Assembly (NCBI RefSeq): GCF_030056815.1
Contig: NZ_JASHKR010000033.1
Location: 1-50,556 of the forward strand
Direction: 5' to 3'
Source of the DNA: Rhodococcus sp. IEGM 1379
Lineage (GTDB): Bacteria; Actinomycetota; Actinomycetes; Mycobacteriales; Mycobacteriaceae
DNA: 50,556 nt
A program made the translations under genes and the position numbers. Under the pieces are notes generated by a model. The model was not told the DNA's origin, made no database searches, and was given only the letters and a program-made list of their open reading frames with translations. Positions within the stretch are counted from its first letter, which is position 1. Every line of letters begins with the position of its first letter. Of the stretch, positions 21,958 through 48,334 are shown piece after piece.

Positions 21958-21980
21958 CAAACAAACCAATGGTATGTTTG
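21958..21980. promoter_or_regulatory. ARE-like inverted repeat, site A
   Basis: CAAACAAACC, spacer AAT, then GGTATGTTTG. On the minus strand the arms read CAAACATACC and GGTTTGTTTG and match site B at 36174 in all 20 arm positions. The site lies 60 bp upstream of the leftward glycosyltransferase start and 131 bp upstream of the rightward hydrolase start. It resembles the autoregulatory elements bound by butyrolactone-receptor repressors (established family knowledge); binding here is inferred. Confidence 0.75.
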
Positions 21981-22057
21981 ACAGCAACATACAGGCAACT
22001 TCAATCAGCTAGCTCATCCCGGCTCAAATCGGGGTCTGCACGGACATCAGTTCACGG

Positions 22058-22103
22058 CACTGTCCGCACGCCGGCACTGTCCGCACGCCGGCACTGTCCG
22101 CAC
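22058..22103 (+). repeat. 2.7 tandem copies of a 17-bp unit
   Basis: CACTGTCCGCACGCCGG occurs at 22058-22074 and 22075-22091, and its first 12 bases recur at 22092-22103. The array ends 8 bp before the GTG of the hydrolase gene, in its leader. No protein-coding frame explains it. Confidence 0.85.
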
Positions 22104-22111
22104 TACACGGA

Positions 22112-23881
22112 GTGATCCCAATCGAGACTCAACTGGCAACGTGGTTCGGACCGGCGACGACGCCGCTGCTCGGATTCGTCCATGTACCGCAGTCGGGCAC
22201 TGCTCGCGAAGCTGTCGTGCTGTGCTCGCCTATCGGCAAGGAACACATCGATACATACCGCGGGATGCGACTCCTGGCGAACGAGCTCGCGACCCGCGGG
22301 ATCGTGGCGTTCCGGTTCGACTACGAGGCCATCGGCGATTCAACCGGTGCAGAAGATGCTCCCGACGCAATGCACCGTTGGCAGGACAGCATTGTCAGTG
22401 CCATCGACTATGTCAGGAGGAGCGGTGCGCAGTCCGTCAGTATTGTCGGACTGCGACTCGGTGCACTCTTGGCCGCTTCAGCGCTCACTGAGTGCGGGGC
22501 TATCAATTCGATCGTCCTCTGGGATCCGATCATCAATGGGCGCAACTACGTCAGGGAACAGCGCGCGTTCTACGCAATCAGTGTGGGCAAAGACGATCCA
22601 GCCGACCCACGCGTGTCGATCATGGGTGGAACATTGGCGCCCGAATGTGCCGATGAACTCATGACCAGTCGCATCAACGGTCCGTTTCCGGGAAATCCGC
22701 GTGCCCTACTCGCCGTCCGGTCATCGATGAGAGACAGCAGTGCAATCACCCGACTGACGTCGACGATTCAACCTGACGTTCTGGTTCTGGAGAATCACGA
22801 AACATTCACGTCTCCCCCGAGCTTCTATGTCGATATTCCGTACGGTTACATCGACGAGATCGCCGACTGGATCGACAAAAACACGCCGGAGGCTTCCCAC
22901 GCCTTCGTCCCCACCATCGTGCCCACTGCACGCGTGGCCGTGACAGCCAGTGGGGAAGACGTCTACGAATCACTCGAACGAGTCGGTGCCCATCAACTTT
23001 TCGCGATTCGCACACATCCCGTGAGTCCCGCCACCGAATCTGCTCTTGAAGCTCAGCCTGTTGCCTTCCAGAAGCCTGGACGCGGCCTGGTGTTCTTCAC
23101 AACTGCCATCGAGCATCGCATCGGACCCGGACGTTCCTGGGTGAAGATTGCGCGCGAAGCCGCTGAGCACTCTGTTACCACTTTGCGGTTCGACCGACGC
23201 GGCGTCGGTGACACCGGGCGCATCGATGTAAACAACCCGACGTCGGTGTATTCACTTTCGGCAGACGATGATGCGATGACGGCCGTCACTGCACTCGGAG
23301 CATCTCCCGAAAACCTGATTCTGGCGGGACTGTGTTCGGGCGGTTGGACTGCCGCGTCGGTAGCACTGAAGGTGGGTGCTCGGTCAACGATTCTCGTCAA
23401 CATGATCTTGTGGTCGGTACGAAGGAAGCGGGCCCTCACCGACGCAGTGCTACCCGAATCCCCGAAAATAAGTCCTGAAGGCGGCACAACAAAGCTGTCT
23501 TTCCGGGTGAAAATCAAGGCGCATTTGCAGGCACGACTTCCCTATTTTGCATGGAAGATACTGGGCAACAATGGAATAACTCAGGTTCCCGAAGTCATGC
23601 TCGACGCACTTTACAGGCGCGGCGTGCACACGAAGGCCATTCTCTCACCCGCCGACGCGGAGTGGTTCCAGTACCAGCGCGGCCCGCAAGGTATCGAACG
23701 AATGATTCGCCGTGGTTACACCTTCGACGTTGTCATGCCCAATGTCGGAGACCACCCGTCTTACCATCGCGACCTGCGAAGCATCATCCATCGTGAGTCG
23801 ATATCTGCCATAACAACACAATTCGGCAGTTCGACAGGACGATCGATCAGCAGCGCTGATGCGAAGCGGACAACGGTGTGA
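22112..23881 (+). CDS. Two-domain alpha/beta hydrolase of the EPS cluster
   Basis: This 589-residue protein contains two successive alpha/beta-hydrolase domains. Domain 1 (about 1-260) has VVLCSPIGKEHIDTYRG, FRFDYEAIGDSTG and VGLRLGALLAAS, where the nucleophile-elbow Ser is replaced by Arg. Domain 2 (about 310-560) has LRFDRRGVGDTGR and LAGLCSGGWTAAS, with Cys at the elbow. Both resemble the hydrolases I recall as exosortase A system-associated (TIGR03100/TIGR03101 types), here fused in one chain. No exosortase is in the window. The role in polysaccharide synthesis is unknown. The GTG start at 22112 overlaps GGAG (22109-22112), so normal ribosome-binding spacing is absent. Its GTG-TGA end overlaps the next gene. 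Confidence 0.8.
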   Translation: MIPIETQLATWFGPATTPLLGFVHVPQSGTAREAVVLCSPIGKEHIDTYRGMRLLANELATRGIVAFRFDYEAIGDSTGAEDAPDAMHRWQDSIVSAIDYVRRSGAQSVSIVGLRLGALLAASALTECGAINSIVLWDPIINGRNYVREQRAFYAISVGKDDPADPRVSIMGGTLAPECADELMTSRINGPFPGNPRALLAVRSSMRDSSAITRLTSTIQPDVLVLENHETFTSPPSFYVDIPYGYIDEIADWIDKNTPEASHAFVPTIVPTARVAVTASGEDVYESLERVGAHQLFAIRTHPVSPATESALEAQPVAFQKPGRGLVFFTTAIEHRIGPGRSWVKIAREAAEHSVTTLRFDRRGVGDTGRIDVNNPTSVYSLSADDDAMTAVTALGASPENLILAGLCSGGWTAASVALKVGARSTILVNMILWSVRRKRALTDAVLPESPKISPEGGTTKLSFRVKIKAHLQARLPYFAWKILGNNGITQVPEVMLDALYRRGVHTKAILSPADAEWFQYQRGPQGIERMIRRGYTFDVVMPNVGDHPSYHRDLRSIIHRESISAITTQFGSSTGRSISSADAKRTTV

Positions 23882-25281
23882 ACCCCGTGATCTTGCTGCT
23901 CGGCGTGATGGCTGCGTCCCCGATTGCAGTTGCCCTCTACAGACGGCCACAACGAGGACTCCTGCTCCTCGCCCTTCTCGCGCCCCTTCACGGCCTGCTG
24001 GCAATCATCCCGAACGGGCAATCCTTGGCCGGGTGGAAAGAAGGCCTGATCCTGCTGACATTGTTGTGCACCTTCGTAAGTCCGAATCGCCAACGGGCCG
24101 TACGTCCATCGATGCCCTGGTGGCCGGCAGCAGTCGCCTGGGTGCTCATGGGATCTGTGTCCGCACTGATCCTTTCCGGATTAGGTGGACTGGTATCGAT
24201 CAAGATCACATACTTCTACGCGTTGATCCCCGTCGTCCTCTGGCGTGCACCCTTCACCCGAACAGATCGAGACCATCTGGTCACGATCCTCATGGGTATG
24301 GGCATCTTCACTGCGGCGATCGGACTACTCCAGCAAATCGTCGGGCCTGCATATCTTGTCGAACTCGGCTACAGCTACACCGAACAGATCAGAATCACCG
24401 GTTCGCTGCTACGCAGCTTCAGCACGTTCACCGGCCCATTCGCATTTGCACTCTTTGTCAGCATGAGCCTGATCATCGGTATATCAGTCAGCCTCGCTGA
24501 TCCAAAACGCCTGCGTAACACGATCTTCCTAGCCGCAACTCCGATCATGATCGCCGGGATGGGGGTTTCCATCGTGCGCGCTAGTTACATCGCGCTCGCT
24601 GTCGGTCTCTTCTACCTGGCGATCTACCGATATCGTTCTCTGCTTGTATTGTTCGCCGGTATCGCTGCCGCAGTTCCAGTGGCATTACTTCTCGCGCCGG
24701 CCTCCGTCGTCAAGCCATTGTTCTCCTCATACAGCCTGTCGGAGCGCGGCAGTGGTTGGTCGTCGACGATCAGTTCGTTGTTTGTCCATCCCCTTGGCCA
24801 GGGACTTGGCGCAACCGGGTCCGCGGCCGCGAAAGCTGCCGAAACTGCCCACCCGATGCTGAACACGATGACCATCAAAGCAGCAACGACTCTTGGACTG
24901 ATTCCATACCAACCCGACAACTACTACATCAAAGTACTTGTCGAGCTGGGCCCAGTCGGGATGTGGATCTTCGCCCTACTCCTGATCTCCGCAGCACTCA
25001 CTGCACTCAGAAGCTCCCGGGTACTCCCCGGACAGGACGGCGCCTTCGCTTTGGGCGTCAGCGCTTCCATCATCGCCGCAGCCTGTGCGTCGGTGTTCGC
25101 TACGTACTTCGAGATATTCCCTCTCGACTTGTACTTCTGGTTACTGATTGGAACTGTGGGATGCGCATTGAGTCAACATCACTCCGCACGAGCAACGGCG
25201 GAGGTTCAGGAATCACGTTCGGCGCCATGGCCCTCCGCCCAGGCGGAGGCGGAGTACAGACCTACGCTCGCGAAGTCCTGA
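23878..25281 (+). CDS. O-antigen ligase/polymerase-like membrane protein (Wzy/WaaL type)
   Basis: This 467-residue polytopic membrane protein has roughly eleven or twelve helices and a large extracytoplasmic loop (about 285-345, SSYSLSERGSGWSSTISSL onward) containing HPLGQGLG and NYYIKVLVELGPVG. This is the layout of Wzy_C/O-antigen ligase proteins. In this setting it most likely polymerises the EPS repeat units after flipping. The GTG start overlaps the hydrolase stop (GTGA). The C-terminal tail (about 435-467) is soluble and lies on DNA shared with the following glycosyltransferase. Confidence 0.85.
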   Translation: MNPVILLLGVMAASPIAVALYRRPQRGLLLLALLAPLHGLLAIIPNGQSLAGWKEGLILLTLLCTFVSPNRQRAVRPSMPWWPAAVAWVLMGSVSALILSGLGGLVSIKITYFYALIPVVLWRAPFTRTDRDHLVTILMGMGIFTAAIGLLQQIVGPAYLVELGYSYTEQIRITGSLLRSFSTFTGPFAFALFVSMSLIIGISVSLADPKRLRNTIFLAATPIMIAGMGVSIVRASYIALAVGLFYLAIYRYRSLLVLFAGIAAAVPVALLLAPASVVKPLFSSYSLSERGSGWSSTISSLFVHPLGQGLGATGSAAAKAAETAHPMLNTMTIKAATTLGLIPYQPDNYYIKVLVELGPVGMWIFALLLISAALTALRSSRVLPGQDGAFALGVSASIIAAACASVFATYFEIFPLDLYFWLLIGTVGCALSQHHSARATAEVQESRSAPWPSAQAEAEYRPTLAKS

Positions 25282-26249
25282 AAGAGATTGCCCCGCTGAT
25301 CAATGGAGCGGTGAAGTTGAGCGCCTCGATCCAGAGCGACGCAGTCTCCGAGATTCCGGCATCGTTGAGCGTCATCCCGCGACCAGTGGTCGCCGGAGCC
25401 AGAAGGGCAGCGTGGGCGATGGTGCCGATCCTCGGGTCGGCTTTGTACCACAGTCTCGATGTCGATCTCCCGATCAGGCAAACAGGACTGACTGTTTCGA
25501 CGTTCCACGATATGTCGGTATTCGATGTTCCCTGGGCATTCAGCAAATTCCGAGCCGCCGGCGAACGCCAATTACTGTCGATGGCCCTGCGTAAGGCTGA
25601 TGTGCTCATCGCCGTGTCCGACTTTACCGCCGAGCGAATCAAATCGCTGAGCGGTCGCGAGGCAATTGTCACTCCACTGGCACCTGCACCGTGGGCCACG
25701 GTGCCTACGTCTACCGAAGTAGCCGAGGTCCGTCGCCGCTTGAACCTACCTGAGCGATTTGTACTTCAAGTCGGAACCATCGAACCGCGCAAAGACGTCG
25801 CACTGGTTGCAAATGCCTGCTCCGAACTATCAATTCCCTTTGTCCTCGCTGGGTCCGGATCTCGCGGACCTGACGCACCCGGTTCCGCGATCGGCCTTGG
25901 CTACGTTGCAACAGAAGACCTTCCAGCGCTATATTCTGCAGCAACTGCTGTTGCGTACGCGTCGCACTACGAGGGTTTCGGCCTCCCACCACTCGAGGCG
26001 ATGGCGTGTGGCAGCGCTGTCGTCGCCAGCGCCGTTGGGGCACTGCCTGATTTTGCCGACGACGCCGCAGCCCTAGTTCACACACACGACAAGGATTCAT
26101 GGGTACGTGCGCTCCGCTCGGTGATCGACGACTCCGAATACAATGCGGCCCTGCGCACCTCAGCGCCTCGAGTTGCATCGCGATTCACTTGGGCACAAAC
26201 TGCCGAGCAGACTGTCGAGGCATACCGGACTGCCGGGTTGGACGTATGA
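25161..26249 (+). CDS. Glycosyltransferase, GT4 family (EPS cluster)
   Basis: This protein of about 362 residues opens with ITFGAMALRPGGGGVQTYAREVL, the glycine loop of GT-B enzymes. The donor-domain features are VLQVGTIEPRKDVALVANAC and VAYASHYEGFGLPPLEAMACGSAVVAS (E-x7-E). It should add a sugar to the lipid-linked EPS unit. The ATG at 25161 gives a 121-bp overlap with the polymerase gene; an ATG at 25227 would shorten the overlap to 55 bp but cut the first strand. A much longer open frame back to 24756 is not supported by homology. Confidence 0.87.
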   Translation: MRIESTSLRTSNGGGSGITFGAMALRPGGGGVQTYAREVLKEIAPLINGAVKLSASIQSDAVSEIPASLSVIPRPVVAGARRAAWAMVPILGSALYHSLDVDLPIRQTGLTVSTFHDMSVFDVPWAFSKFRAAGERQLLSMALRKADVLIAVSDFTAERIKSLSGREAIVTPLAPAPWATVPTSTEVAEVRRRLNLPERFVLQVGTIEPRKDVALVANACSELSIPFVLAGSGSRGPDAPGSAIGLGYVATEDLPALYSAATAVAYASHYEGFGLPPLEAMACGSAVVASAVGALPDFADDAAALVHTHDKDSWVRALRSVIDDSEYNAALRTSAPRVASRFTWAQTAEQTVEAYRTAGLDV

Positions 26250-26259
26250 GTTGGGCTTT

Positions 26260-30006: not shown

Positions 30007-30235
30007 AAAGATTCTCCGACTTAATCCCCAGTCAGAAAAAATCGGACAATACCAACCGATGCATTCCAATCGCCTTCATAAGCAAGCATAGTTGCTGAAG
30101 AACCGACCTTGGGACTGCTCACCACAGATCGAATTCGTGCAATTCTACTTATTGCCGGATTCGTCAGCGATATCCGGATCCATCATCTTATTGTGGCCCC
30201 TGTTTCGCGACCCCTGTGGAAAGAAGGTGGTCGAC

Positions 30236-31327: not shown

Positions 31328-31344
31328 TCTGACTCCGCCGACCG

Positions 31345-33072
31345 TCAGTCCGTCTTGGACGTCCCGCGGGTTCCTTCATGCCGCAGTAGTCCCACCCGTG
31401 AAACAGGCCGACCATCACGGGTCCTGCCCTTTTTACTGGTGTTCAACACAATTCGCTCGGTAGCCGCTTCGGAGTTGATGTCGTCGACGTGATCAACGAC
31501 ATCAACTCCGTCAAGGTCACCAGCACCGACTGCACCCACTATCGTTCGTGGGCCTTCCACCGGAGACGAATGGTCCTCCGGCTCCAGCGCAGGCAATTGG
31601 CGACGGTCGATCGTCACAGTCTGCGCGTCGATCAGCCCCGCTCGTGTCCTACGGTCACCGGAATCAACCACTAGCCCGGACGTCGCTTCCGCACTACTTG
31701 ATGGAGCTCCTGTGACTCTGTTCAAATCTTCCGCGACTCCGTTCGAATACAGTGGCGCGTCTTCCGCCGACAGCGGCCCTACCGCCGATTCTCCCACTAC
31801 TGCGGGTGAACTCACCGGTGTCGTGTCGCCACTCCGACCCCGTATCGAAGATAATGTGAGGAAGTCGATGACAGGTTCGGGCGCTGCCGGTCCGACCAAC
31901 ACCAGTGACCGCGCCACATCAACTTCCGCCAAAGTCCGAAGACAACTGACAATTTCACTTTGATCAGCGTCTTGTGCCGAAACGACAACGATCGCAAACG
32001 CAGTGCCACTCGAATCGACTACGCTCCACCAGTTCGAACTCAATGCATGGACGGATACACGCGCCTGCAAGCCTTCCGGCACGTCCCACGAGTTCATGTC
32101 TACGCCCTCCCCGACCAATACGAGAACGTGATCCCCCAAGCTCGCGCGTTGACTCAACGTGAGAGCAACATTAGACGGCATCTCGACCACAGAAGAGTGT
32201 TGCACAAGCAGTGACGCGCCGAATTTCTTCGCCGTACGACGGGCCCAGGCATCAGTGACGCGAGAACTGAAACGTCCGCGACATGCCACGAGAATCTCTG
32301 CCACCAGAATGAGAACGACCAGAAAGGCCACCGCAGATTCGACAAACGGCTTGGGAGCAACAGGAAGTCCCGTCCCTGACGGTGCCGACAGCAATTGCAA
32401 CCTGTCGGAATTTGACTCTGCAGCGCGCAGTTGCCTCAGTTGCTCAAGCCTGGCATCAAGATCCGCTGCGACCGTCGGATCATCCTTGGCTGTTTCGTAG
32501 TTGTCGATACTCTTTTGGCGCGCTGCTGCCAACTGTGAGTTGAGCCGGGCGATGTCGTCCGTCAGTATCTTGGTCCGCCGATCGAGAGTTTCGGCATTAC
32601 GTTGCCCCTGAGCATCACTCAATGTCTCCACGACGACGCGCGCAAGCTTGTCGGACTCCTCCTGACTGAATCCTGTGGCCTTCACGAAGACCAGAGCGGG
32701 TGAAGTTCCCGGGGTTACCGCTATGTGACTCGAAACGTCAGCGGCGGCCCACCCGTTGCCCATCTTCTGCTCAATTTCGGCAACTACAGCGCTATCCGTC
32801 GACAGCGCTATGTAGGGCGCGACCATCTGCCCGAGATTGGCATCGGTAACCACAACCTGCGCACCGGTCTGGACTTCCGCGACGATATCGGATTCGTACA
32901 CCGGCGTCGCACTTCCTCTGACCATGTACACGACGCCACCGACAATCAATGCAATCACCAGCGCAGGAAGGGCCACTCGCGACAAATTCCGCACGTGACC
33001 AACCAAGTCGAATGTTGGCGGCACGCCCAGCTCTCGACGAATCACTGCGTCCCTAGCCCGCACATCTGACAC
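31345..33072 (-). CDS. Wzz-like polysaccharide chain-length protein with long cytoplasmic tail
   Basis: This 575-residue protein has helix 1 at about 34-54 (ALPALVIALIVGGVVYMV), an extracytoplasmic domain with coiled-coil stretches (TKILTDDIARLNSQLAAARQ) to about 235, and helix 2 (AVAFLVVLILVAEILVACRG) at about 250. This is the Wzz/polysaccharide co-polymerase layout. The C-terminal 300 residues contain a Rossmann-like region (DHVLVLVGEGVDMNSWDVP, FAIVVVSAQDADQSE) but no Walker A motif, then a disordered acidic/Ser-rich tail with a basic end. It resembles a BY-kinase module that lost its ATP site. The GTG at 33072 is chosen because GGAGG lies 8 nt upstream; the longer TTG frame to 33114 lacks this. 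Confidence 0.75.
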   Translation of the reverse strand: MSDVRARDAVIRRELGVPPTFDLVGHVRNLSRVALPALVIALIVGGVVYMVRGSATPVYESDIVAEVQTGAQVVVTDANLGQMVAPYIALSTDSAVVAEIEQKMGNGWAAADVSSHIAVTPGTSPALVFVKATGFSQEESDKLARVVVETLSDAQGQRNAETLDRRTKILTDDIARLNSQLAAARQKSIDNYETAKDDPTVAADLDARLEQLRQLRAAESNSDRLQLLSAPSGTGLPVAPKPFVESAVAFLVVLILVAEILVACRGRFSSRVTDAWARRTAKKFGASLLVQHSSVVEMPSNVALTLSQRASLGDHVLVLVGEGVDMNSWDVPEGLQARVSVHALSSNWWSVVDSSGTAFAIVVVSAQDADQSEIVSCLRTLAEVDVARSLVLVGPAAPEPVIDFLTLSSIRGRSGDTTPVSSPAVVGESAVGPLSAEDAPLYSNGVAEDLNRVTGAPSSSAEATSGLVVDSGDRRTRAGLIDAQTVTIDRRQLPALEPEDHSSPVEGPRTIVGAVGAGDLDGVDVVDHVDDINSEAATERIVLNTSKKGRTRDGRPVSRVGLLRHEGTRGTSKTD

Positions 33073-33142
33073 GTCGAAAACCTCCAGCTCGGCAACACTC
33101 AAAACGACCAACAAAAGAAACCAGCAGTTTGCTAAATCTCCA

Positions 33143-33165
33143 TAAACATACCTGAAGTCTGCTAA
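33143..33165. promoter_or_regulatory. Partial ARE-like site C upstream of the Wzz-like gene
   Basis: TAAACATACC matches the left arm of sites A and B in 9 of 10 positions; the right half AGTCTGCTAA matches GGTTTGTTTG in only 5 of 10. It lies 70 bp upstream of the Wzz-like start. It may be a weak operator or coincidence. Confidence 0.35.
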
Positions 33166-33816: not shown

Positions 33817-33857
33817 GCGTTTTTCCTTGATCCAGGTATCATCGGAATATCAAAAAG

Positions 33858-34391: not shown

Positions 34392-34450
34392 CCAGTCAGG
34401 CTTGTCCTGGTGGCCAGCAGCGCTGGAACCCGAGCCTGCGCAGACCTGGT

Positions 34451-35932
34451 TCAGTAGGCTCCATCACTGCGAACCACAGCGGACACAGTACGCGCGATGA
34501 TCGAAAGGTCTTGTACCGCTGACCAGTTCTCGACGTACGAGGAATCCAGGCGAACCGATTCTTCCCACGAGAGATCACTACGACCGCTGACCTGCCACAG
34601 TCCGGTAATACCGGGTTTCACGAACAACCGGCGAGACACCTCGTCGTCGTACATCTCGACTTCGCGTCGAAGTGGCGGACGCGGACCGACGACGCTCATT
34701 TCACCGCGAATGACGTTGAAGAACTGTGGAAGTTCGTCGATGCTCAACCGGCGGAGAATTTTGCCGATCGGAGTGATGCGCGGATCTTCGCGCATCTTGA
34801 AGAGCACACAGCCTGCACCCTCATTGTCGCCCATCAGATCGACTACCTGCTGATCTGCACCGGCGACCATCGTACGAAACTTGTACATGGGAAACGGTTT
34901 CCCGTTCAATCCGATCCGTTCAGCCTTGTAGAAAACAGAGCCTTTCGAGGTGACCTTGACTGCGACTGCCGCCGCAATCATGACGGGCGCGACCAGCAGG
35001 ATCATCAAGACCGAGAACAGCGTGTCGAAAATTGCCGGTGCCCAACGGTTTGCGCCTTCGTAGCGCGGACGCTCGACGTGGATGAGCGGCAGCCCGGCTA
35101 CGGGCCGAAACATCAGTCGGGCCTTGGATACATCCGCAATGACCGGCGAAACAACAAGATCCACACCTTCTGCTTCCAGATCCCACATCAGTTTGCGGAT
35201 TCCGACCTGGCCGAGATCTTCGGTGCCGGTCACGATGACGGTGTCGGCGTTGCACGAGCGCATGGCCTCGATCACTTCGAATTCGTTGCCCAACACCGGA
35301 ACATGAGCACCGTCGACCATGATGTGGTCGTCGAGCACTGTGGCGCGACGCGGAATGCAGGTGCCCACGACGTCATATCCTGCCGATGCCGCTCGTACGA
35401 AGGACCGCGTAGTGGCAACAACGGAAGCATGCCCACCGACCAGCAGAACTGCGTTCCGGCATTGCCCGGACGCCCGCTTGTTTCGAATATCCCGACGCCA
35501 GAGGTACCGGCCGAGAAGCAAGGCACCCAAGCCGAGCGGCAGAGCGATCATGAGGTAGCTTCGGGCAATTTCGACGCCGAGAACGATCCCGGCAAGTGCG
35601 CCGAGTCCGAATACCTGACCTGTTGCCAACAGAACACGCTCGTATTCGTCGCCACCGTCTCCCAACATCGATTGATGGCGACTACGACCCCGAGAGAGTG
35701 TGATCATCCACAGCACACCGAGCAAAACGGATGCAACAACCTTGAGCGGAGTCAGCCACTCGAAAGGATGGGGCCAAACACTGCCGAACTGCGCGAGTGC
35801 AATCACAAGAATTACGGTGACGGAGTCGGTGATCGCAATTCTGCTCCGATACGCACGCCGCCAGTCTCGACTCAGATCAGCCGAATTCCGCAGTGCCGTC
35901 GGCTGGATCCCCACCTCAGCATGAACGCTCAT
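34451..35932 (-). CDS. Initiating sugar transferase (polyprenyl-phosphate glycosylphosphotransferase, WbaP-like)
   Basis: This 493-residue protein has an N-terminal block of four helices (about 28-140), a CoA-binding-like Rossmann region (about 150-260, NAVLLVGGHASVVATTRSFV) and a fifth helix at about 290 (FDTLFSVLMILLVAPVMIAAAVAVKV). The C-terminal bacterial sugar transferase domain contains YKAERIGLNGKPFPMYKFRTM, DELPQFFNVIRGEMSVVGPRPP and FVKPGITGLWQVSGRSD. It transfers a hexose-1-phosphate from a nucleotide sugar to undecaprenyl phosphate, the first committed step of EPS assembly. It has a long 343-bp upstream region with operator-like site B and a hairpin. Confidence 0.94.
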   Translation of the reverse strand: MSVHAEVGIQPTALRNSADLSRDWRRAYRSRIAITDSVTVILVIALAQFGSVWPHPFEWLTPLKVVASVLLGVLWMITLSRGRSRHQSMLGDGGDEYERVLLATGQVFGLGALAGIVLGVEIARSYLMIALPLGLGALLLGRYLWRRDIRNKRASGQCRNAVLLVGGHASVVATTRSFVRAASAGYDVVGTCIPRRATVLDDHIMVDGAHVPVLGNEFEVIEAMRSCNADTVIVTGTEDLGQVGIRKLMWDLEAEGVDLVVSPVIADVSKARLMFRPVAGLPLIHVERPRYEGANRWAPAIFDTLFSVLMILLVAPVMIAAAVAVKVTSKGSVFYKAERIGLNGKPFPMYKFRTMVAGADQQVVDLMGDNEGAGCVLFKMREDPRITPIGKILRRLSIDELPQFFNVIRGEMSVVGPRPPLRREVEMYDDEVSRRLFVKPGITGLWQVSGRSDLSWEESVRLDSSYVENWSAVQDLSIIARTVSAVVRSDGAY

Positions 35933-36173: not shown

Positions 36174-36196
36174 CAAACATACCTCAGGTTTGTTTG
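36174..36196. promoter_or_regulatory. ARE-like inverted repeat, site B
   Basis: CAAACATACC, spacer TCA, GGTTTGTTTG. Both arms are identical to those of site A read on the opposite strand. It lies 241 bp upstream of the sugar transferase ATG, in the only sizeable non-coding gap before mazG. It is a likely operator over the promoter that starts EPS synthesis. Confidence 0.75.
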
Positions 36197-37103: not shown

Positions 37104-37109
37104 GTGCGC

Positions 37110-40769: not shown

Positions 40770-40872
40770 AGAATGCGCTCCTCAGCGGTGACGACGAGCT
40801 GCGGACGAACAACCCGGGCGTCACCGCTCCAAGAGTGAGTGACGCCGAGTTGATTCTATCCGCGAGCGCGCC

Positions 40873-43425
40873 CTACCTACGCGGAACCCGCCTGGTCGGC
40901 GCAACCCGAGGAGGATCGGCCACCGTCGACGGCGCGACCGCCACGCTTTCGTGTGAGTTGAGCGCCCGCACCCGACCGATCACAGTCTTCGCGTGACCGA
41001 CGCGGCGCAACCTCACTGTCCGCGAGCCTCCGGGTGCCAGATGGAACCAGGAATCCTCCGGATCGAATCCGTGCAGGTCCAGCGAAACGTACTGCGCCGT
41101 ACCTTCGGACGTGACGTCGACGACCCACTCGTCGTCGCCGACCGCGCGTGCGATTGCCGACAGCCCCAACGAGCGTTCGAGAGGCCGGGCGGCGCTCCCC
41201 AACAGGTGCACTACCTCGTCGAGCACCGTTCCCTCGTCGTTCTCGAGGGTGACTGTGACGGCGTCGTAATTGGGCGGGCCGAACTTGAAAACATGTGTGA
41301 GATCGGTGAATCGTCCGACCACGGCGTCGACGGACAGGCTCTGGCTTCCGTGAGCCTCGATCTTGACCGCGGCGACGGCATTCACCGGCACGATCCCGGA
41401 CCTGCTGTGCGCCCGGATACGGATTTCGCCGACGACCGGCTGCGCGGTCTCGTTCAGCACGTCGAGACGAAGCCCGTCCATTCCATCGTCTGTGACGATG
41501 AGAGCCAGTGGTTTCGAGTAGCGCCGAAGCACGTACCACGGCGCTTTGGGGGTGCCCTGCCAGTCGAGGACTCCCCATCCCGGCCCCGGTTCGAGATCCA
41601 TCAGTGCCAGGGTGAGGGCGCCGTCGCATCCGGAATCTGCTCGACGCCAATGGCCGAGAACTGCCCCGAACGCTTCACAGATCGCTGCTCGGCCCAGGTC
41701 GAGATAATGTTCGGGATCGGACCAGCGCACCTCGCTCGGATCCTCACCGAACAACGTCTTGACGTAGTGATCGCGAACGTCTTCGAAATCCCACGAAGAC
41801 CCGTTGTCACGCGGTACCGCTGCTTTCCACGCCGGATGATGACCCGCCGCCGACACGGAACCGAATGCGGATTCGATGACGTTGTTGGAAGGCGGAATCG
41901 CAAATGCCAGGCACTCTGCCGCAAATCGCACGCGTGCGCGCGTCACGTCGTCGAGCGGACGACGGTAGGCACCCACTCCGAAATAGTGCGCGATACCGCT
42001 ACCGACGTGGGTAACCAACTCGTCGCGCTCGGGCGGAGCGGACGGCGACGACGTCACGTATTCGACGTGGGGTGCGAGATCGGCGATCAACGACGGCAAC
42101 TGAGAGTGAATGATCGAGATCTGCTGATCGACCAAACCGAGCATGGCCGGCTGTTGCTCGGTTTCGCTTCCACCACAGAGGACCACGAGAGCAGGATTGC
42201 CGCCGACGCGCCGGAGAAACGCACGTATCTCAGCTGAGAACAGTGCGAAGAACTCTGCGGTGTCCGGAGGATCGAGTGTCGCAAGCATCGCATCCTGCCA
42301 GACGAGAATGCCCAGCCGTGCGCACTCGTTCCAGAAATGATCGCTCTCGTAAACCATGGTGCCCGGAACCCGAAGCATGTTCACGCCGGCGCCGGCGCAC
42401 CGTTCGAGCACCTGAGTTGTCAAGGTCTCGGATTGGAAGGAGATCGGATCGGTAGGCACCCACACCGAGCCCCGGCAGTACACGTCAATATCGTTGACCG
42501 ACAGGCGAAATCCGCCACCGCTTCGATCAACCTCGAGGCTGCGAAAACCGACGTTCCCCAGCTCGAAGACCTTTCCGCCGACCTCGATCGACACCGGGTA
42601 CCGGTGCTGGGCGCCATGCGTGTGCGGCCACCAGAGATCCACGTCGGGAATCTCGACGACACCGGTGACGTCGGCCAGTCCATCTCTGCCTGGTTTGACG
42701 GCGAGCGACCCGCGCACCGCACCGACAGCCACCGCGACGGCCACAACACCGTTCGGCAAGCCCGAGAGCCGTGCCGTGATCTCGACCTCACCTGCGCCGC
42801 CGACGACGCTGGCATCCAACGCCCGAGAAACAACGCCAACCTTGTGGGTATCCAGTAATCGGATGCCTCGCCACGGTCCCACCGGAACGGGAACTCCGGA
42901 AAACACCGCCGCCCGCCCCAGCAGGGTCGTGCGTATCCACCTCAACCCTTGCTCGCGGACCAAAGCCGAACGCCATCGGCCGCGTGGCCGACGCGAACTC
43001 AATACCGCTGCCAGCGAATGAAAGTGAATGGCGATCGTGATCTCACGCCCGCTCGTCGTATCACGGGTCACGATCGCTTCACCGGGAACGAACATAGACT
43101 CCGACGAGATGGTCAACGTGTTGTCTATCCAGACATCGGCAAACGCTGTCAGCCCGTCGAAGTGGAGCAGCCACGACCCCTCACCGGTCGTGGCCACCCG
43201 AGTGACGAACCACCAGTCCATGGTGTCGAGCGCCTTGATGTCAACGGACCCGGGCCCGTCCAATTCGCGAATCGCCCCCGCCACGGTTCCCGGTACCGTC
43301 GCCCGGTGCCACTCCCCGGAGATCGCGGCCAGCTCGGCCGGATTCGACACCACTCCGGGATCTGTTGCGATACAACGCCAATCTGCTCCGTCAAGCAAAT
43401 CTTCTCGAGAGTAGCGTGCCATCAC
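40873..43425 (-). CDS. GH2-family beta-glycosidase (beta-mannosidase-like)
   Basis: This 850-residue protein has the GH2 order: sugar-binding domain (1-200, WHRATVPGTVAGAIREL, GPWRGIRLLD), immunoglobulin-like domain, TIM barrel (about 310-640) and C-terminal beta domains. The acid/base is probably Glu421 in LVVLCGGSETEQ and the nucleophile Glu504 in RFAAECLAF, matching the GNNE and SEFG positions of beta-mannosidases. There is no signal peptide, so it should act in the cytoplasm. It ends the six-gene carrier-protein operon, overlapping DUF1839 as GTGA. That place is unusual: I know of no role for a GH2 enzyme with aminoacyl carrier proteins. It may act on a glycosylated product or on polysaccharide fragments. 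Confidence 0.85.
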   Translation of the reverse strand: MMARYSREDLLDGADWRCIATDPGVVSNPAELAAISGEWHRATVPGTVAGAIRELDGPGSVDIKALDTMDWWFVTRVATTGEGSWLLHFDGLTAFADVWIDNTLTISSESMFVPGEAIVTRDTTSGREITIAIHFHSLAAVLSSRRPRGRWRSALVREQGLRWIRTTLLGRAAVFSGVPVPVGPWRGIRLLDTHKVGVVSRALDASVVGGAGEVEITARLSGLPNGVVAVAVAVGAVRGSLAVKPGRDGLADVTGVVEIPDVDLWWPHTHGAQHRYPVSIEVGGKVFELGNVGFRSLEVDRSGGGFRLSVNDIDVYCRGSVWVPTDPISFQSETLTTQVLERCAGAGVNMLRVPGTMVYESDHFWNECARLGILVWQDAMLATLDPPDTAEFFALFSAEIRAFLRRVGGNPALVVLCGGSETEQQPAMLGLVDQQISIIHSQLPSLIADLAPHVEYVTSSPSAPPERDELVTHVGSGIAHYFGVGAYRRPLDDVTRARVRFAAECLAFAIPPSNNVIESAFGSVSAAGHHPAWKAAVPRDNGSSWDFEDVRDHYVKTLFGEDPSEVRWSDPEHYLDLGRAAICEAFGAVLGHWRRADSGCDGALTLALMDLEPGPGWGVLDWQGTPKAPWYVLRRYSKPLALIVTDDGMDGLRLDVLNETAQPVVGEIRIRAHSRSGIVPVNAVAAVKIEAHGSQSLSVDAVVGRFTDLTHVFKFGPPNYDAVTVTLENDEGTVLDEVVHLLGSAARPLERSLGLSAIARAVGDDEWVVDVTSEGTAQYVSLDLHGFDPEDSWFHLAPGGSRTVRLRRVGHAKTVIGRVRALNSHESVAVAPSTVADPPRVAPTRRVPRR

Positions 43426-44411
43426 ACCAGCCTGAGGTGTCGCTGCGATTCGACTCCGACGATGGCCGTAATGATTTCCATGGAGTTCTTCCAGGACACT
43501 GCCATCTCGTCGAGTTGATCACGGGGGTCCACGGCGCGTCCCCTCGCCGCACGCGCCATCTGGAATTGAACACTCTTTGCTCCCGCAGCAACCTTGCGGA
43601 AGCCTTCGGCAGCCTCAACTGTTCCGGAAAACCCTGCCGTGTCGAGAAATTCGCTGACATCGCCCGCAAGTTCAGCGCTGGCACCGCATTGACGCAACAA
43701 TCCGAACGACCAGAGATGAAAGGCATCCATACCTGCCGCCTGGACCCACTCGGAATCCTCGACCACTCGTCGGCCCAACTCGCGCACCGGATTTCCCGGC
43801 GGACGGACTGCAACATTTCGACGCGCAACGTCCGCGACGTTCCCGGCATTCATTGCATAACCTGGAGAGAGTCGAATCTGTTCGACGTAAGGAACAAACG
43901 ACGGCAAACTCGAACGATCGAGGTCGAAAACACCGGAGAAATCTTCACCCCGCAAAACATGGTATCCACTGTTGTGAAAGTACTCGAGTTCGCCCGCTAC
44001 CCGATCGATCCGATTGGGAACAATCGTGGTTTTGGTATGCGCCTCATGGTAACTCGTCCCCAATGTGTCGGGAAGCCAATAGCCGTCGACCTCCACGGTC
44101 GACAACATTCCCGCCGCGAGATTGTCCTCGATATGTACCAGCGGAGCTCGCCAGACATTCATCTCTGCGACGTCGATTCCGTACAGCGCCACAATGTCTT
44201 CGGCCTTGAGCTTCAGAAAAGTCCACTGCGTACCGTCGAACCTCGACGAAAATGCACAGGCCAACGCCGGCACCGGGTCGAGCTCGAGCGAATGCAGCAC
44301 CTCGATCCACAAGTCCAGGTAGCAGTTGGTCTGCGCCCACACCCGATCATCGCGGTGAATGGCGTGCGAGGAGTACCCGTCGGGGACAACATCCAGGAGG
44401 CGTGCCATCAC
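43422..44411 (-). CDS. DUF1839 family protein
   Basis: This 329-residue soluble protein carries the family hallmark WLPDTLGTSYHEAHTKTTI (about 113-131), preceded by NCYLDLWIEVLHSLELDP and FTFLKL-type segments, with YFHNSGYHVLRGED after it. The conserved Cys29, the YHEAH/K cluster and the Asp-rich region suggest an enzyme active site, possibly a thioester-cleaving or transferase-like one; this is inference. From memory, DUF1839 genes lie beside amino acid:[carrier protein] ligases in Bradyrhizobium and other bacteria, as here. The start (GTG 44411 or ATG 44408) overlaps the ligase stop. Confidence 0.82.
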   Translation of the reverse strand: MMARLLDVVPDGYSSHAIHRDDRVWAQTNCYLDLWIEVLHSLELDPVPALACAFSSRFDGTQWTFLKLKAEDIVALYGIDVAEMNVWRAPLVHIEDNLAAGMLSTVEVDGYWLPDTLGTSYHEAHTKTTIVPNRIDRVAGELEYFHNSGYHVLRGEDFSGVFDLDRSSLPSFVPYVEQIRLSPGYAMNAGNVADVARRNVAVRPPGNPVRELGRRVVEDSEWVQAAGMDAFHLWSFGLLRQCGASAELAGDVSEFLDTAGFSGTVEAAEGFRKVAAGAKSVQFQMARAARGRAVDPRDQLDEMAVSWKNSMEIITAIVGVESQRHLRLV

Positions 44412-45364
44412 AAACCCATACGTCCGCGAATTTCCACCGGCCAGCCTGAGACCTTCAAGCCATGTGTCCGTAAGAGCGCCAAAGCAATACGTTCCATTCC
44501 GAATCCGACACAGGAACTGTGAGCAACCTCGCCGTCGGAAGTCGTAATTCCGAACGTCTGGCCGAAGTGGTCGAGGTGATTGTTGGACGACACGATCGCT
44601 GTGCCCGCGTCGTGGTCACCGTACAACCGAACCACGAGCTCCGTCTTCAGGTTTTCTTCACGTTGGTTTGCGGCCAACATACGGCCGGCCCGCCCGAAGA
44701 AGGGATCGTTTGCAATGACCGGCGTGGCCTCGAGGCCAAGTTCGTCGAGGACGCCGAGGCCGCGTCGAATCCAGGTTTCACGGTGAGCAGCCGCCACGTG
44801 GGCATCGCCGATGGTGACGAACTCGTGCATCCGGAACGCCTGCATACGCGCCGGGTCAATCGCGGGTTCGTGACGGAAGCAGAAACCGTAGATATCAAGC
44901 AGCACTCCGCCCTTGGGAAGGACGCCCGAGTACTGGGCATAGGCCGGATGGCAGGCAGCCGACACCAGCATCGTCTCTGTCGGTTCGAGATATCGATCCC
45001 ACGATTCACCACTTGCACGATCAGAGAGCAACTGTGCGTGATCAAGATTGCTTCCGGTGAAAGTGTTGATCGCACCGGTCAGGTTGGGGAACGACGCGAT
45101 GTAATCGGTACGTTCGAAACTGGTCCGCGGAAACACGGGAGGAAAGCGCAGGCGTGTCGCCGATGACCCCGGACCTGCCGCCACCACCACGCGGTCGATG
45201 CCGTCGATGATGTCCTCGAAAACCCCTGAGCGTCCGTACAGACCGTCCACATCAGTCTTGATGAGGAGGCCGCCTGCCAACAACTCCCGCTGAAACTCCG
45301 CCCTCGCAAGGTCGAGTTCAGAAGGGAAAGAATCAGTTTCGCTAGTTTCGGTACTGGTAGTCAC
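44408..45364 (-). CDS. Amino acid:[carrier protein] ligase (seryl-tRNA-synthetase-like)
   Basis: This 318-residue class II synthetase core lacks any tRNA-binding domain. Motif 2 is FCFRHEP (161-167) with FRMHEF (177-182), and motif 3 is GFGMERIALALL (287-298). Cys138 (SAACHP), Glu181 (RMHEF) and Cys285 (HSSCVGFG) are placed like the zinc ligands of atypical SerRS and of the aa:CP ligases described by Mocibob and colleagues. Those enzymes activate small amino acids (Gly or Ala) with ATP and load them on the phosphopantetheine of a carrier protein. The carrier protein and its modifying enzyme are in the same operon. The GTG start overlaps the flavoprotein stop (GTGA). Confidence 0.9.
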   Translation of the reverse strand: MTTSTETSETDSFPSELDLARAEFQRELLAGGLLIKTDVDGLYGRSGVFEDIIDGIDRVVVAAGPGSSATRLRFPPVFPRTSFERTDYIASFPNLTGAINTFTGSNLDHAQLLSDRASGESWDRYLEPTETMLVSAACHPAYAQYSGVLPKGGVLLDIYGFCFRHEPAIDPARMQAFRMHEFVTIGDAHVAAAHRETWIRRGLGVLDELGLEATPVIANDPFFGRAGRMLAANQREENLKTELVVRLYGDHDAGTAIVSSNNHLDHFGQTFGITTSDGEVAHSSCVGFGMERIALALLRTHGLKVSGWPVEIRGRMGL

Positions 45365-46551
45365 AGTGTTCCTCGGTATCCGATAGCCATCTGGGCAGAC
45401 CCCGCCATAATCCGATCGTTGTTCACCATTACCGCGGCGCCGTGCGCATCACGGAGATGCCGTCCGAGTGAATACTCGCTGTCCTCGCGATAACCCGAGA
45501 TCCCGCAGATGAGCATTGTCTGACCGATGATCTCCACCACCGAGATCGACGTGGTGACCTTCAAGTTGTTCATCGACAATGCAAAACCGATGCTATCTGT
45601 TGTGGCCGACTCGTCGGACCCGTCTCGGGTCTGCGTAGCGAGGTCGTACCGACGAGCAGATGAATCCACCAGATCGGCGAATTGTTGTGCCACAGCAGCT
45701 GTTTCGGCCAACCGTAGAGCGCCGGGAGATGACACTCCCGGCTGCTTCCGGGCTGCAGCGCGCACATACTTGCGAGCTTTCTCGAGCGCTGCATCCGCAA
45801 TACCCAGCCACACCGAACTCCACACCACATGCGAGACCGGAAGCATGGTGTTGGTGGAGATATGGGAATACGGCGCCTCCGCCACCATGTCCGGGGTGGA
45901 GGTGGCTCGAAGGATATATCCGACACTGCACGTTCCCCTCAGTCCGAGGGTATTCCAGTCGGTAGTCTTCTCCAGTGTGAGATCAGCTCGACGGCAGACG
46001 ACCAGGACCTGGTCATTGGGCTGACTTTCCGGTGTTCGGCGAGCCGTGACGACTATCGCGTCTGCGTCCTCGCCGTACGAAATGACCGGCGCATTTTTGA
46101 TCAGCAGCAAATGACCACCGAGATCTTCGACCGCACAATAACTTCGGCTGACGTCTCCGCCGATACCCAGTTCTGTGGTTGCCGATGCGAGCAACAATTG
46201 ATTCGAGGTGACCTCGACAACAAATGCCCGAAGTGCCTCGGTATTTCCATGCTTGACCAACGAATAGATCTGGGTCTGATGCATCGCGAAGATCATTCCG
46301 CTGGCCGCACAGCGCGATCCGAGAATCCGTGCGATCTCGGAGACCTCACGCAAGGACAGCCCCTCACCGCCGAACTCCGTCGGCACGGCCACGGACAACA
46401 ACCGCTGTTTACGCATCGCAGCAACCGCTTCTGCGGGGAAGCGCGCTTCCGCGTCGACCTCGTCGGCCCACAGTGCGGCAACCTCGTCCGCAACGAACCG
46501 CGCTCGTTCGTGGGCGGTTCCGACAACTAACTCGGACATCGGCATGCTCAC
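45361..46551 (-). CDS. Acyl-CoA-dehydrogenase-like flavoprotein
   Basis: This 396-residue protein has the three-domain acyl-CoA dehydrogenase fold: N-terminal helices with LLSVAVPTEFGGEGLSLREV, a middle beta domain (LASATTELGIGGDVSRSY, WNTLGLRGTCSVGYIL) and a C-terminal four-helix bundle ending GISGYREDSEYSLGRHLRDAHGAAVMVNNDRI. FAD binding is expected. The usual catalytic Glu is not where typical members place it, so the reaction may differ. In this operon it could oxidise or otherwise alter the aminoacyl group held on the carrier protein; that is inference. The GTG at 46551 overlaps the carrier-protein stop. Confidence 0.85.
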   Translation of the reverse strand: MSMPMSELVVGTAHERARFVADEVAALWADEVDAEARFPAEAVAAMRKQRLLSVAVPTEFGGEGLSLREVSEIARILGSRCAASGMIFAMHQTQIYSLVKHGNTEALRAFVVEVTSNQLLLASATTELGIGGDVSRSYCAVEDLGGHLLLIKNAPVISYGEDADAIVVTARRTPESQPNDQVLVVCRRADLTLEKTTDWNTLGLRGTCSVGYILRATSTPDMVAEAPYSHISTNTMLPVSHVVWSSVWLGIADAALEKARKYVRAAARKQPGVSSPGALRLAETAAVAQQFADLVDSSARRYDLATQTRDGSDESATTDSIGFALSMNNLKVTTSISVVEIIGQTMLICGISGYREDSEYSLGRHLRDAHGAAVMVNNDRIMAGSAQMAIGYRGTL

Positions 46552-46790
46552 GCGGCACCCAGACCGATCAATGCGTCTTCGATCGATTTGACGCTCGCGA
46601 ATGTACTCTTGCGCAGCAACTCGTCCGGAAATTCGATATCGAACGAATCTTCCAGTGCCAGCATCACATTGACACTGGCATGGGATGTCAACCCCAATTC
46701 GTAGAGATCAGCTTCCACATCAATCGTGCTGACGTCGACTGCGAGCCGACCGTGCTCCACGAGCACCTTGCGAATTGCCTGATCACTCAT
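46548..46790 (-). CDS. Acyl/aminoacyl carrier protein
   Basis: This 80-residue four-helix carrier protein has the phosphopantetheine attachment site ELGLTSHASV, Ser36 in the LTSH context, followed by the acidic helix II (VMLALEDSFDIEFPDEL). Its own phosphopantetheinyl transferase is encoded just upstream and its presumed loading enzyme two genes downstream. I chose the ATG at 46790, which overlaps the transferase stop as ATGA and has AAGGA about 11 nt upstream. The ATG at 46799 sits too close to that purine stretch. Confidence 0.93.
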   Translation of the reverse strand: MSDQAIRKVLVEHGRLAVDVSTIDVEADLYELGLTSHASVNVMLALEDSFDIEFPDELLRKSTFASVKSIEDALIGLGAA

Positions 46791-47266
46791 CGGTGACATC
46801 GTCCTTCTGTTTTTTGCGAAATGTCGCAGCGCGTGGCAATCACCATTGCAATGGCGACGTCCGCCTCATGCGAAATAGATACTTGAAAATCTTGAAGGTC
46901 TTGCGCTAAGGCAAGTTTCGCTGCTTCACCGGAAAGTACTACTCCACATCCCCCCCACAGTTCTCGCGTGATCTCGATCGAATTCCACGGAAGCGGCGAG
47001 TCGAGTGGCCGGAGAACCTTGACCACCGCCTCCTTGGCCGCAAAACGAGCAGCCAACCGTTGATCTCGAGCCGGACCGTCACACGTCGTCAACTCGTGCG
47101 CCGTGAACGTCCGTTCCAGATAACGACGTCCGAAAAGATCGATACTCCGACTGATGTCGACAACGTTGACGACGTCGCAACCAATCCGAGGTCCGAAGTC
47201 CCGAGAGTCGACGTCCCGAGAGTCGACGTCCCGAGAGTCGACCGCCGACATGTGCCCACCGCTCAT
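46787..47266 (-). CDS. AcpS-type phosphopantetheinyl transferase
   Basis: This 159-residue protein has the AcpS features: IGCDVVNVVDISRSI (metal-binding Asp near 31), FGRRYLERTFTAHEL, RLAARFAAKEAVVKVL (Lys78-Glu79) and a C-terminal VSISHEADVAIAMVIAT. It converts apo to holo carrier protein using CoA, presumably the carrier protein encoded immediately after it. The N-terminal 25 residues are extra to the family and contain VDSRD three times in a row, encoded by a perfect 15-bp triplication. Start could be the ATG at 47266 or 47251. It is the first gene of the six-gene operon. Confidence 0.87.
   Translation of the reverse strand: MSGGHMSAVDSRDVDSRDVDSRDFGPRIGCDVVNVVDISRSIDLFGRRYLERTFTAHELTTCDGPARDQRLAARFAAKEAVVKVLRPLDSPLPWNSIEITRELWGGCGVVLSGEAAKLALAQDLQDFQVSISHEADVAIAMVIATRCDISQKTEGRCHR
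47198..47242. repeat. Three perfect tandem copies of a 15-bp unit
   Basis: GTCCCGAGAGTCGAC is repeated at 47198-47212, 47213-47227 and 47228-47242. Because 15 is a multiple of three, it adds VDSRD repeats to the N-terminus of the phosphopantetheinyl transferase without shifting the frame. Confidence 0.9.
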
Positions 47267-47574
47267 CTGGTTACCCCTTCCATCGGTGTACCGGGCGACC
47301 CCCTACGCCGCCCGCTACACCGACTTTGTGTCGTCGAACCCGTCTGCCTTGATCAACCCGACCAGTACAGCAACTGCCTGGCTACCAGGAGAACATACCG
47401 CAACATCTCAATGGTGGGCAAGATCGGACCAATCGATATTCAACTACCCGTTAAACATACTCTTGGTTTGTTTTAAAGTGCTGGTAACGAGAAAACCCGA
47501 AGAGCGAAATGGGAAAGCAGCAGTTTTCGAACCGCGGAATCACCCATCCGCGATTTCCTGCACCTAGCCTGAGC
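47267..47574. other. Leader/promoter region of the carrier-protein operon
   Basis: These 308 bp lie between the phosphopantetheinyl transferase start and the 3' end of the butyrolactone-receptor-like gene. There is no credible protein. The region contains operator-like site D at 47452-47474 and a lone half-site GAACATACC at 47391-47399, so the operon promoter probably lies near 47390-47480, giving a leader of 100-200 nt. Confidence 0.55.
47452..47474. promoter_or_regulatory. ARE-like inverted repeat, site D
   Basis: TAAACATACT, spacer CTT, GGTTTGTTTT. It matches the arms of sites A and B in 17 of 20 positions and keeps the same 3-nt spacing. Outer bases extend the symmetry (TTAAAC on the left, GTTTTAA on the right). 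It lies about 186 bp upstream of the phosphopantetheinyl transferase ATG and about 100 bp downstream of the receptor-like gene. Confidence 0.7.
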
Positions 47575-48216
47575 TCAGTGTTCCGTCCCAAGACGGCGTG
47601 CAGCGAACTGACGGAAATATTCAACCTTCGACTCAGGCACGACAACAGGAAGGACCATATTCCAGGACGACTTCATCGACTCGGACAACTCACGCACTGT
47701 TCCAGTCGCGGCCGCCACCAATCGAACACCCGACACCATCTGAAGCAAGAAACGTGCAATGTCCGAGGAATCGACGTCATGGCGCAAGTCGCCCTCATCG
47801 GCAGCGCGACTGGCAAGTTCCCGGAAGATGTCGAGCCAAACGTCGAATGTTGCCGGCCCCGATCCCCGGTAGTCACCGATCTCGACCAGCAAGCGGAAAG
47901 TCGCCCGAACAAGCACGTCGTGCGCACCGATGTCGACCGTCACCGACGAGATGCCGATCAGCGATTCCAATGCCGGCGTCCGACGGTCCAACCACAGCTC
48001 GCACTTGGCGTCGAACCGGGCTGCGCCTTCGTCGATCACCGCCCTGGCCAACTCTTCTTTGGAACCGAAGTGGAAGTACAGCGCCCCCTTGGTCACCTGC
48101 GATTCAGCGATGATCTCGCTCAAACTGGCGTTTGCGTACCCCAGACGTATGAATACGCCGGCCGCTCCGCGCAGTACCGAATCACGGGTGGCTTCCGCCC
48201 GTTCCTGCCTCACCAT
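47575..48216 (-). CDS. TetR regulator of the gamma-butyrolactone receptor type (ArpA/ScbR/CprB-like)
   Basis: This 213-residue repressor has an N-terminal helix-turn-helix, RAEATRDSVLRGAAGVFIRLGY then SLSEIIAESQVTKGALYFHF and SKEELARAVIDEG; the VTKGALYFHF-SKEELA wording is characteristic of butyrolactone receptors. Trp127 (ATFDVWLDI) sits where CprB has its ligand-contact Trp127, and the end has the MVLPVVVP-type segment of that family. It likely represses ARE-type operators until a butyrolactone-like signal binds. The ATG at 48216 has GGAGG 8 nt upstream; the GTG at 48240 does not. It adjoins the carrier-protein operon and is an orphan: no butenolide synthase (AfsA-like) is in the window. 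Confidence 0.83.
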   Translation of the reverse strand: MVRQERAEATRDSVLRGAAGVFIRLGYANASLSEIIAESQVTKGALYFHFGSKEELARAVIDEGAARFDAKCELWLDRRTPALESLIGISSVTVDIGAHDVLVRATFRLLVEIGDYRGSGPATFDVWLDIFRELASRAADEGDLRHDVDSSDIARFLLQMVSGVRLVAAATGTVRELSESMKSSWNMVLPVVVPESKVEYFRQFAARRLGTEH

Positions 48217-48314
48217 CGATCCGGCCTCCAATAACCACACATCGAACGCATCCTGACCCTTACCCGTTCACAGCGTCAAAATGGAAGGCACGGTCCAGCT
48301 TTCGGCGCACCTTA

Positions 48315-48334
48315 CAAACAAACCGCATTTGTCC
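48315..48334. promoter_or_regulatory. ARE half-site E upstream of the receptor-like gene
   Basis: CAAACAAACC at 48315-48324 equals one arm of site A in all 10 positions. The other half is degenerate (GCATTTGTCC). It lies about 100 bp upstream of the regulator ATG, a reasonable place for autoregulation. Confidence 0.4.

Follow-up and report, generated by a model that had tools for sequence, protein, structure and literature searches.

A conserved operator joins an exopolysaccharide locus and a carrier-protein operon in Rhodococcus and is probably read by an orphan ScbR-family regulator

This study concerns an operator-like palindrome in a contig stretch of 50,556 nucleotides (the window, at its full length) from Rhodococcus sp. 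IEGM 1379, the genome of which comprises 6.14 Mb in 230 contigs. One conserved operator, with the consensus AAACAWACYNNNRGTWTGTTT and a variable centre, joins an exopolysaccharide (EPS) locus and a carrier-protein operon, and the gene standing 0.1 kb from one of its copies encodes P0001, which is a true member of the ScbR family of TetR regulators. P0001 is the best candidate binder of the operator. Probably, an orphan ScbR-family repressor, P0001, is the owner of the operator and controls an EPS regulon that includes the carrier-protein operon. The sites in the window are as follows.

Operator site A, 21958..21980 (-), in the divergent gap between the glycosyltransferase gene (20761-21897, -) and the EPS hydrolase operon (22112 on, +)
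Weaker operator site C1, 33114..33134 (+), opening a tandem pair, score 18.3
Operator site C2, 33144..33164 (+), score 23.8, 30 bp from C1 and directly before the 31345-33114 (-) gene
Operator site B, 36174..36196 (+), after mazG and 241 bp ahead of the start of the initiating sugar transferase gene (35932)
Operator site D, 47452..47474 (+), downstream of the regulator gene and 185 bp ahead of the start of the phosphopantetheinyl transferase gene (47266)
Half-site-like sequence, 48316..48336 (-), ahead of the regulator gene, with a score of 6.2, and excluded from the operator count

An earlier note on this DNA, made from the letters alone, had reported a 23-bp inverted repeat at A, B and D, and its coordinates and matches proved correct: the 23-mers at A and B are the same at all 20 arm positions, and that at D agrees at 17 of 20. 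Read on the - strand, site A is CAAACATACCATTGGTTTGTTTG, and the two arms of the palindrome pair at 9 of 10 positions. At the tolerance applied, shuffled windows yielded a mean of 0.01 matches, indicating that A, B and D are beyond chance. The note was also right that the sites stand in gaps ahead of the EPS hydrolase and glycosyltransferase genes, the sugar transferase gene and the carrier-protein operon, site A lying 60 bp from the start of the 20761-21897 gene and 131 bp from the 22112 start; pair C (C1 and C2) is additional and was absent from that account. A search of the whole IEGM 1379 genome with the 21-bp core, allowing up to 3 mismatches, found 7 distinct places, with 0 in the backwards control: A, B and D, two on contig C94 (pair E, at 50983 and 51013, 30 bp apart), and one each on contigs C124 and C133. 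The many unrelated intergenic occurrences that the earlier note had named as an argument against a link were thus not seen, since five of the seven places are A, B, D and pair E.

The operator was then followed through a set of 28 Rhodococcus genomes including that of IEGM 1379 (labelled G001 and so on). A score matrix was built on 14 sites and used to scan 24 neighbourhood stretches, 1.81 Mb in total, from 22 of these genomes, with first-order shuffles as the null. The scan found 75 sites scoring at least 20 (0.0 per shuffled set) and 105 scoring at least 16 (0.4 in shuffles). The 14 training sites were drawn from the same genomes, so their own high scores hold by construction; the sites scoring at least 20 comprise 47 distinct sequences. 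Among the 97 sites scoring at least 18, 88 fell outside genes called by script, the non-coding remainder being 11.4% of bases, and 64 were no more than 350 bp ahead of a called gene start, counts that are not independent because many of the genomes are close kin. Palindromes are common in intergenic DNA, and those described here could in principle be chance or a repeated DNA element (a mobile repeat or terminator) rather than operators. This explanation is extremely improbable in view of the 0.01 matches expected per window, the position of the 64 sites ahead of genes, and the pattern at B and D, where the arms are conserved, the flanks diverge and the three-base spacer varies.

In the close genomes, which are the 10 of 28 (IEGM 1379 included) with P0001 at 88% identity or more, site D forms a conserved island in all 10, and site B is conserved ahead of the sugar transferase gene in the 9 that could be aligned and stands after mazG in the tenth, G001. 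The spacing of pair E is exactly 30 bp in 9 of the 10, the E region of G003 lying outside the sample, and that of pair C is exactly 30 bp in four genomes (IEGM 1379, G016, G013 and G003). In G001, E is located 26 kb from D. When seven close layouts (the window and six relatives) were laid out gene by gene, the A-gap site was present in 5, and the remaining two, G001 and G022, have different EPS cassettes that bear their own sites. Sites likewise accompany the EPS cassettes of G001, G022, G004, G009 and G026, in which the hydrolase has an identity of only 35-40%. In G003, the regulator gene lies 113 kb from site D (G003:C3 792519-905683) and D is retained; this separation is an insertion or rearrangement.

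Seven distant genomes, the regulators of which are about 50% identical to P0001 (43% in G026), showed recurrent sites behind mazG and ahead of both EPS and GGDEF/EAL genes; the six that have the carrier-protein operon there all have a site before it as well. Furthermore, a site scoring at least 16.5 was found directly upstream of the operon in 18 of the 19 genomes with the carrier-protein ligase, each above the best of 200 shuffles of the respective stretch. The claim of the earlier note that one operator links the EPS locus and the carrier-protein operon is supported, and a common operator in many Rhodococcus suggests that the EPS genes and the amino-acid pathway work together. In G005 (L163 12193-18034), one operator stands ahead of genes that encode a GyrI-like effector-binding protein. 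A second operator there precedes an operon encoding a GAF-GGDEF-EAL protein together with a ThiF/nitroreductase protein, so that turnover of cyclic di-guanosine monophosphate may be part of the regulon. The window itself has two adjacent GGDEF-EAL proteins at the left end of the EPS locus (6243-10956, -), which are without an operator in IEGM 1379.

The proposed binder is encoded beside site D.

P0001, 47575..48216 (-), ScbR-family TetR regulator, NF041196 at 162.7 bits (cut-off 150)

The view in the earlier note that this TetR gene is receptor-like was supported by the profile score above the curated cut-off and by a CprB-like fold model. The nearest structures by sequence were CprB (1ui5, E 1.3e-23), AvaR1 and TylP. 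The model had a predicted local distance difference test (pLDDT) score of 91.9, and its top Foldseek match was CprB (template-modelling score 0.84), followed by AvaR1 and then TylP. W127 of P0001 is invariant among aligned P0001-type sequences, and CprB and AvaR1 also have a Trp at this alignment position, which we take to be a receptor pocket residue. In addition, K43, G44, Y47 and F48, through which CprB is reported to contact bases (PMC4150764), are identical in residue and numbering in P0001. A second TetR gene stands next to P0001 in the window (48405-49058, -), FasR-like below the cut-off (110 of 330 bits); this gene, beside glmU, is conserved in most of the 80 P0001-type loci described below.

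Several observations weigh against P0001 as the putative owner of the operator. No operator was found before the P0001 gene of IEGM 1379 (best score 6.2) or before its orthologues in the 21 other scored genomes (at most 4.2 in the other 9 close genomes and 2.7 in 12 distant ones), and in 76 of 78 further P0001-type loci no upstream score reached 8; upstream scores of at least 5 occurred in 4 of the 78, no more commonly than in shuffles (4.9%). Autoregulation of P0001 in IEGM 1379 was accordingly set aside. The two other loci, L262 (9936; score 17.9) and L232 (9931; 16.4), from R. spelaei and Antrihabitans cavernicola, have a site 66-71 bp before the P0001-type gene, compared with a best of 14.7 among 1560 shuffles, which hints at autoregulation in those two distant species. 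P0001-type genes in the order glmU-TetR-P0001-mfd also occur in Nocardia and other Nocardiaceae, yet only 7 of 80 P0001-type or similar loci had a site scoring at least 15 within about 10 kb, none of them in Nocardia, and 2 of the 80 fetched loci showed the carrier-protein operon. The regulator is therefore older and wider than the regulon. Conversely, G007 has both the regulator and the carrier-protein operon and no site upstream of the latter (best 3.0). A family-wide pattern search of 301 genomes gave a match in at least 50, compared with 1 in the backwards control, but among the matches listed, only 4 of 20 chosen places outside the locus or the genus had an EPS or regulator link, and 5 of the 20 lay beside PucR-type genes; part of the family-wide matches thus probably belongs to another regulator, and the search was not used as support for the regulon. 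Look-alike palindromes beside PucR-type regulator genes were seen in the genus labelled g6 (L280, L281, L289, L290 and L295), where perhaps a different regulator has a similar site.

IEGM 1379 also has two ScbR-like paralogues, C75 and C65, relatives of which are present in 27 and 26 of the 28 genomes, respectively (E 1e-40), and which could bind the operator instead. Because these paralogues are near-universal and P0001-type genes of Nocardia are without sites, co-occurrence is weak evidence for P0001 as the binder and was dropped as proof. We nevertheless consider it unlikely that a GblR-like paralogue (C75 or C65) or another unlinked regulator owns the operator, with P0001 a mere neighbour. 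Both paralogues score above the ScbR-family cut-off and are present in all 10 close genomes (at 78% or more and 70% or more), and the site-free Nocardia loci would fit such an owner. However, no operator was found near either gene in IEGM 1379 (best 4.8 and 2.6, over about 3.6 kb each), or at the AfsA-adjacent GblR-like genes that 16 of 20 scanned AfsA loci contained, whereas the sites of EPS-bearing species are concentrated in the block adjoining the P0001 orthologues. A further point against P0001 as an orphan comes from G004, which has a second P0001 homologue, at 57% identity, beside a gene for the hormone synthase AfsA and another TetR gene (L057, G004:C79), so that P0001-like receptors can be synthase-linked.

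The earlier note had proposed that a butyrolactone-type signal controls both EPS and the carrier-protein pathway; the analysis supported the common operator and did not support the butyrolactone signal. In such a circuit, an AfsA-type butyrolactone would bind P0001 at autoregulatory element (ARE) boxes and turn on the EPS genes and the carrier-protein pathway. P0001 scores above the ScbR cut-off, its 57% homologue adjoins AfsA in G004, a signal from a neighbouring strain could still act, and R. jostii RHA1 is reported to make a butyrolactone-like molecule (PMC5735094). However, a search of the IEGM 1379 genome for AfsA gave 0 matches, the same search finding AfsA in 20 of the 28 genomes, and AfsA is absent from 4 of the 10 close genomes (IEGM 1379, G003, G022 and G023). 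The operator was found in 0 of 20 AfsA loci, scanned as one locus of about 3.4 kb per genome; this left out the second AfsA loci of G004, G006, G008 and G026, of which that of G004, with the 57% homologue, was scored separately and had no operator (best 5.2). The GblA/GblR pair is thus not a likely owner of the operator either. In the R. jostii system mentioned by the earlier note, the predicted receptor, ScbR-like as P0001 is, is the AfsA-adjacent GblR in a GblA/GblR cluster (PMC5735094); in G009, the AfsA-adjacent receptor is a gene distinct from the P0001 homologue and only 35% identical to P0001, and the AfsA locus (L079) is without the operator. The portion of the R. jostii account available to us names no target genes and describes growth and colony shape as unchanged (PMC5735094). 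A classical circuit of this kind is improbable here and was rejected as the first choice, and we infer that the ligand of P0001 is not an AfsA product.

The Streptomyces receptors ScbR, ArpA, CprB, AvaR1 and TylP share family, fold and DNA-contact residues with P0001, and both the ARE operators and the Rhodococcus operator are AT-rich palindromes with AAAC/GTTT and ACC/GGT elements. The resemblance of the arms to ARE boxes, noted earlier, therefore holds for the half-site elements, GGTWTGT resembling ARE half-sites, but not for the spacing, which between ACC and GGT is 3 in Rhodococcus and 8 in the AvaR1 consensus; likewise, the outer AAAC..GTTT spacing is 13 as against 10 in SfbR sites. By eye, the operator does not conform to the published 18-bp ARE consensus, AWWCCRBBHDDNMSGTWT or AAACVGNNBVNNCSGTTT (PMC5744401, PMC7480387). 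One arrangement that could reconcile the two spacings is a pair of dimers shifted by 4 bp, with 17 bp covered by each dimer, and CprB is reported to bind DNA as a dimer of dimers (PMC4150764). In contrast to the Streptomyces circuits, and to the canonical autoregulated butyrolactone circuit in general, IEGM 1379 has neither AfsA nor a site before the regulator gene, and the proposed targets are EPS genes and a carrier-protein operon. The orphan or pseudo receptors ScbR2, AvaR2 and SfbR2 are ScbR-like and read ARE-type sites, similarly to what is proposed for P0001. SfbR2, which reportedly binds antimycin A, sits in a butyrolactone gene cluster (PMC7480387), whereas the gene for P0001 is surrounded by a housekeeping block (glmU-mfd-mazG) and EPS genes.

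The genes at the EPS sites of the window are the following.

Glycosyltransferase, 20761..21897 (-), all profile matches below cut-off, possible target of site A
Double alpha/beta hydrolase, 22112..23881 (+), first gene to the right of site A
O-antigen ligase-like protein, 23878..25281 (+), second gene to the right of site A, PF04932 at E 5.3e-6, below the curated cut-off
Protein of 589 amino acids, 31345..33114 (-), no Pfam match, downstream of pair C
EPS initiating sugar transferase, 34451..35932 (-), TIGR03025 at 401.7 bits (cut-off 295.55), proposed target of site B

For EPS genes of Rhodococcus, a study from 2025 proposed AraC, PhoU, XRE and OmpR-type regulators (PMC12298843). Outside the window, pair E stands directly before the start of a gene on C94 (L004 907-1449, -) for a protein of 180 amino acids without a Pfam match; the gene lies behind prfC- and pnuC-like genes (named by eye), and the protein is present in 9 close genomes, IEGM 1379 included, at 65-100% identity. 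The C124 site (L006 1501-1521; score 29.7) lies about 330 bp before an open reading frame of 332 amino acids with an N-terminus that by eye resembles a secretion signal, and its counterpart in G022 (L299 6798; score 28.0) precedes a gene for an Ig-like-domain protein.

Site D leads into the carrier-protein operon.

RNA hairpin, 47282..47324 (-), leader of the operon just before the first gene, z-score -6.06
Phosphopantetheinyl transferase, 46787..47266 (-), first gene of the operon, by profile matches
Acyl carrier protein of PRK07081 type, 46548..46799 (-), NF005480 at 104.1 bits (cut-off 72)
Acyl-CoA dehydrogenase-like protein, 45361..46551 (-), by profile matches
Amino acid:[carrier protein] ligase, 44408..45364 (-), NF005479 at 428.6 bits (cut-off 357), 4h2w at E 2e-67
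DUF1839 protein, 43422..44411 (-), PF08893 at 335.4 bits, papain-like fold by published classification
Glycoside hydrolase family 2 (GH2)-like protein, 40873..43425 (-), last gene before mfd

The operon is assigned to the amino acid:[carrier protein] ligase pathway by its ligase and cognate carrier protein, which both score above curated cut-offs. Given the predicted control shared with the EPS genes, its most likely use is EPS decoration, that is, the addition of an amino-acid-derived group to the polymer. A published classification places DUF1839 among the papain-like proteins, with a C(T/S)H triad, and its role in glycan processing at the cell wall was a guess from genomic context (PMC10318531). 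In an alignment of 18 sequences, Cys30 and several His, Ser and Thr residues were invariant, and a comparison of DUF1839 with solved structures gave no credible match (best E 0.082). Each of the 10 close genomes has an equivalent leader hairpin, in which both sides of the stem carry changes and TAGGGG falls in or at the loop. A search of Rfam gave no match; leader control of the operon is possible. The Bradyrhizobium ligase Bll0957 (PDB 3mey; also 4h2w) is of the same family, and bll0958, the tag following bll0957, is reported to be an acyl-CoA dehydrogenase gene (PMC10888616). In Rhodococcus, by comparison, the ligase gene lies between an ScbR-type gene and mfd, behind an EPS operator, and shares its operon with genes for a phosphopantetheinyl transferase, the DUF1839 protein and a GH2-like protein.

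If P0001 is the owner of the operator, the regulon could work as follows. Ligand-free P0001 would occupy AAACAWACYNNNRGTWTGTTT at B, A, pair C, D and pair E and keep the target genes off, namely the initiating sugar transferase gene (B), the EPS cassette (A and pair C), the carrier-protein operon (D) and the small gene behind pnuC (pair E). The two sites of a pair are exactly 30 bp apart, about three helical turns, which suggests that P0001 binds them cooperatively from the same side of the helix. A small molecule fitting a receptor-type pocket would release P0001, and polymer synthesis and the carrier-protein operon would be turned on together. The ligase would then charge the carrier with an amino acid, which the dehydrogenase may modify, and the papain-fold DUF1839 protein may pass the amino-acid-derived group to the polymer.

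A wider reading, which we regard as rather doubtful, is that a hormone-receptor-type regulator without a synthase runs a matrix regulon (EPS, with GGDEF/EAL genes in relatives) and that its signal is the product of the carrier-protein operon. If this were true, the operon would do two jobs, decorating the polysaccharide and reporting the supply of the amino-acid group through P0001. To our knowledge, ScbR-family proteins would thereby gain a new class of ligand, and an amino acid:[carrier protein] ligase would be assigned a role in polysaccharide for the first time. No report of the operator regulon was seen among the papers listed in searches of open-licence literature on Rhodococcus butyrolactones, butyrolactone receptors and EPS, gblR, EPS clusters, the carrier-protein ligase, and DUF1839 or bll0957. 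The present findings define candidate targets for a regulator of the ScbR family whose gene has no hormone synthase beside it in IEGM 1379, and they connect exopolysaccharide with a carrier-protein pathway.

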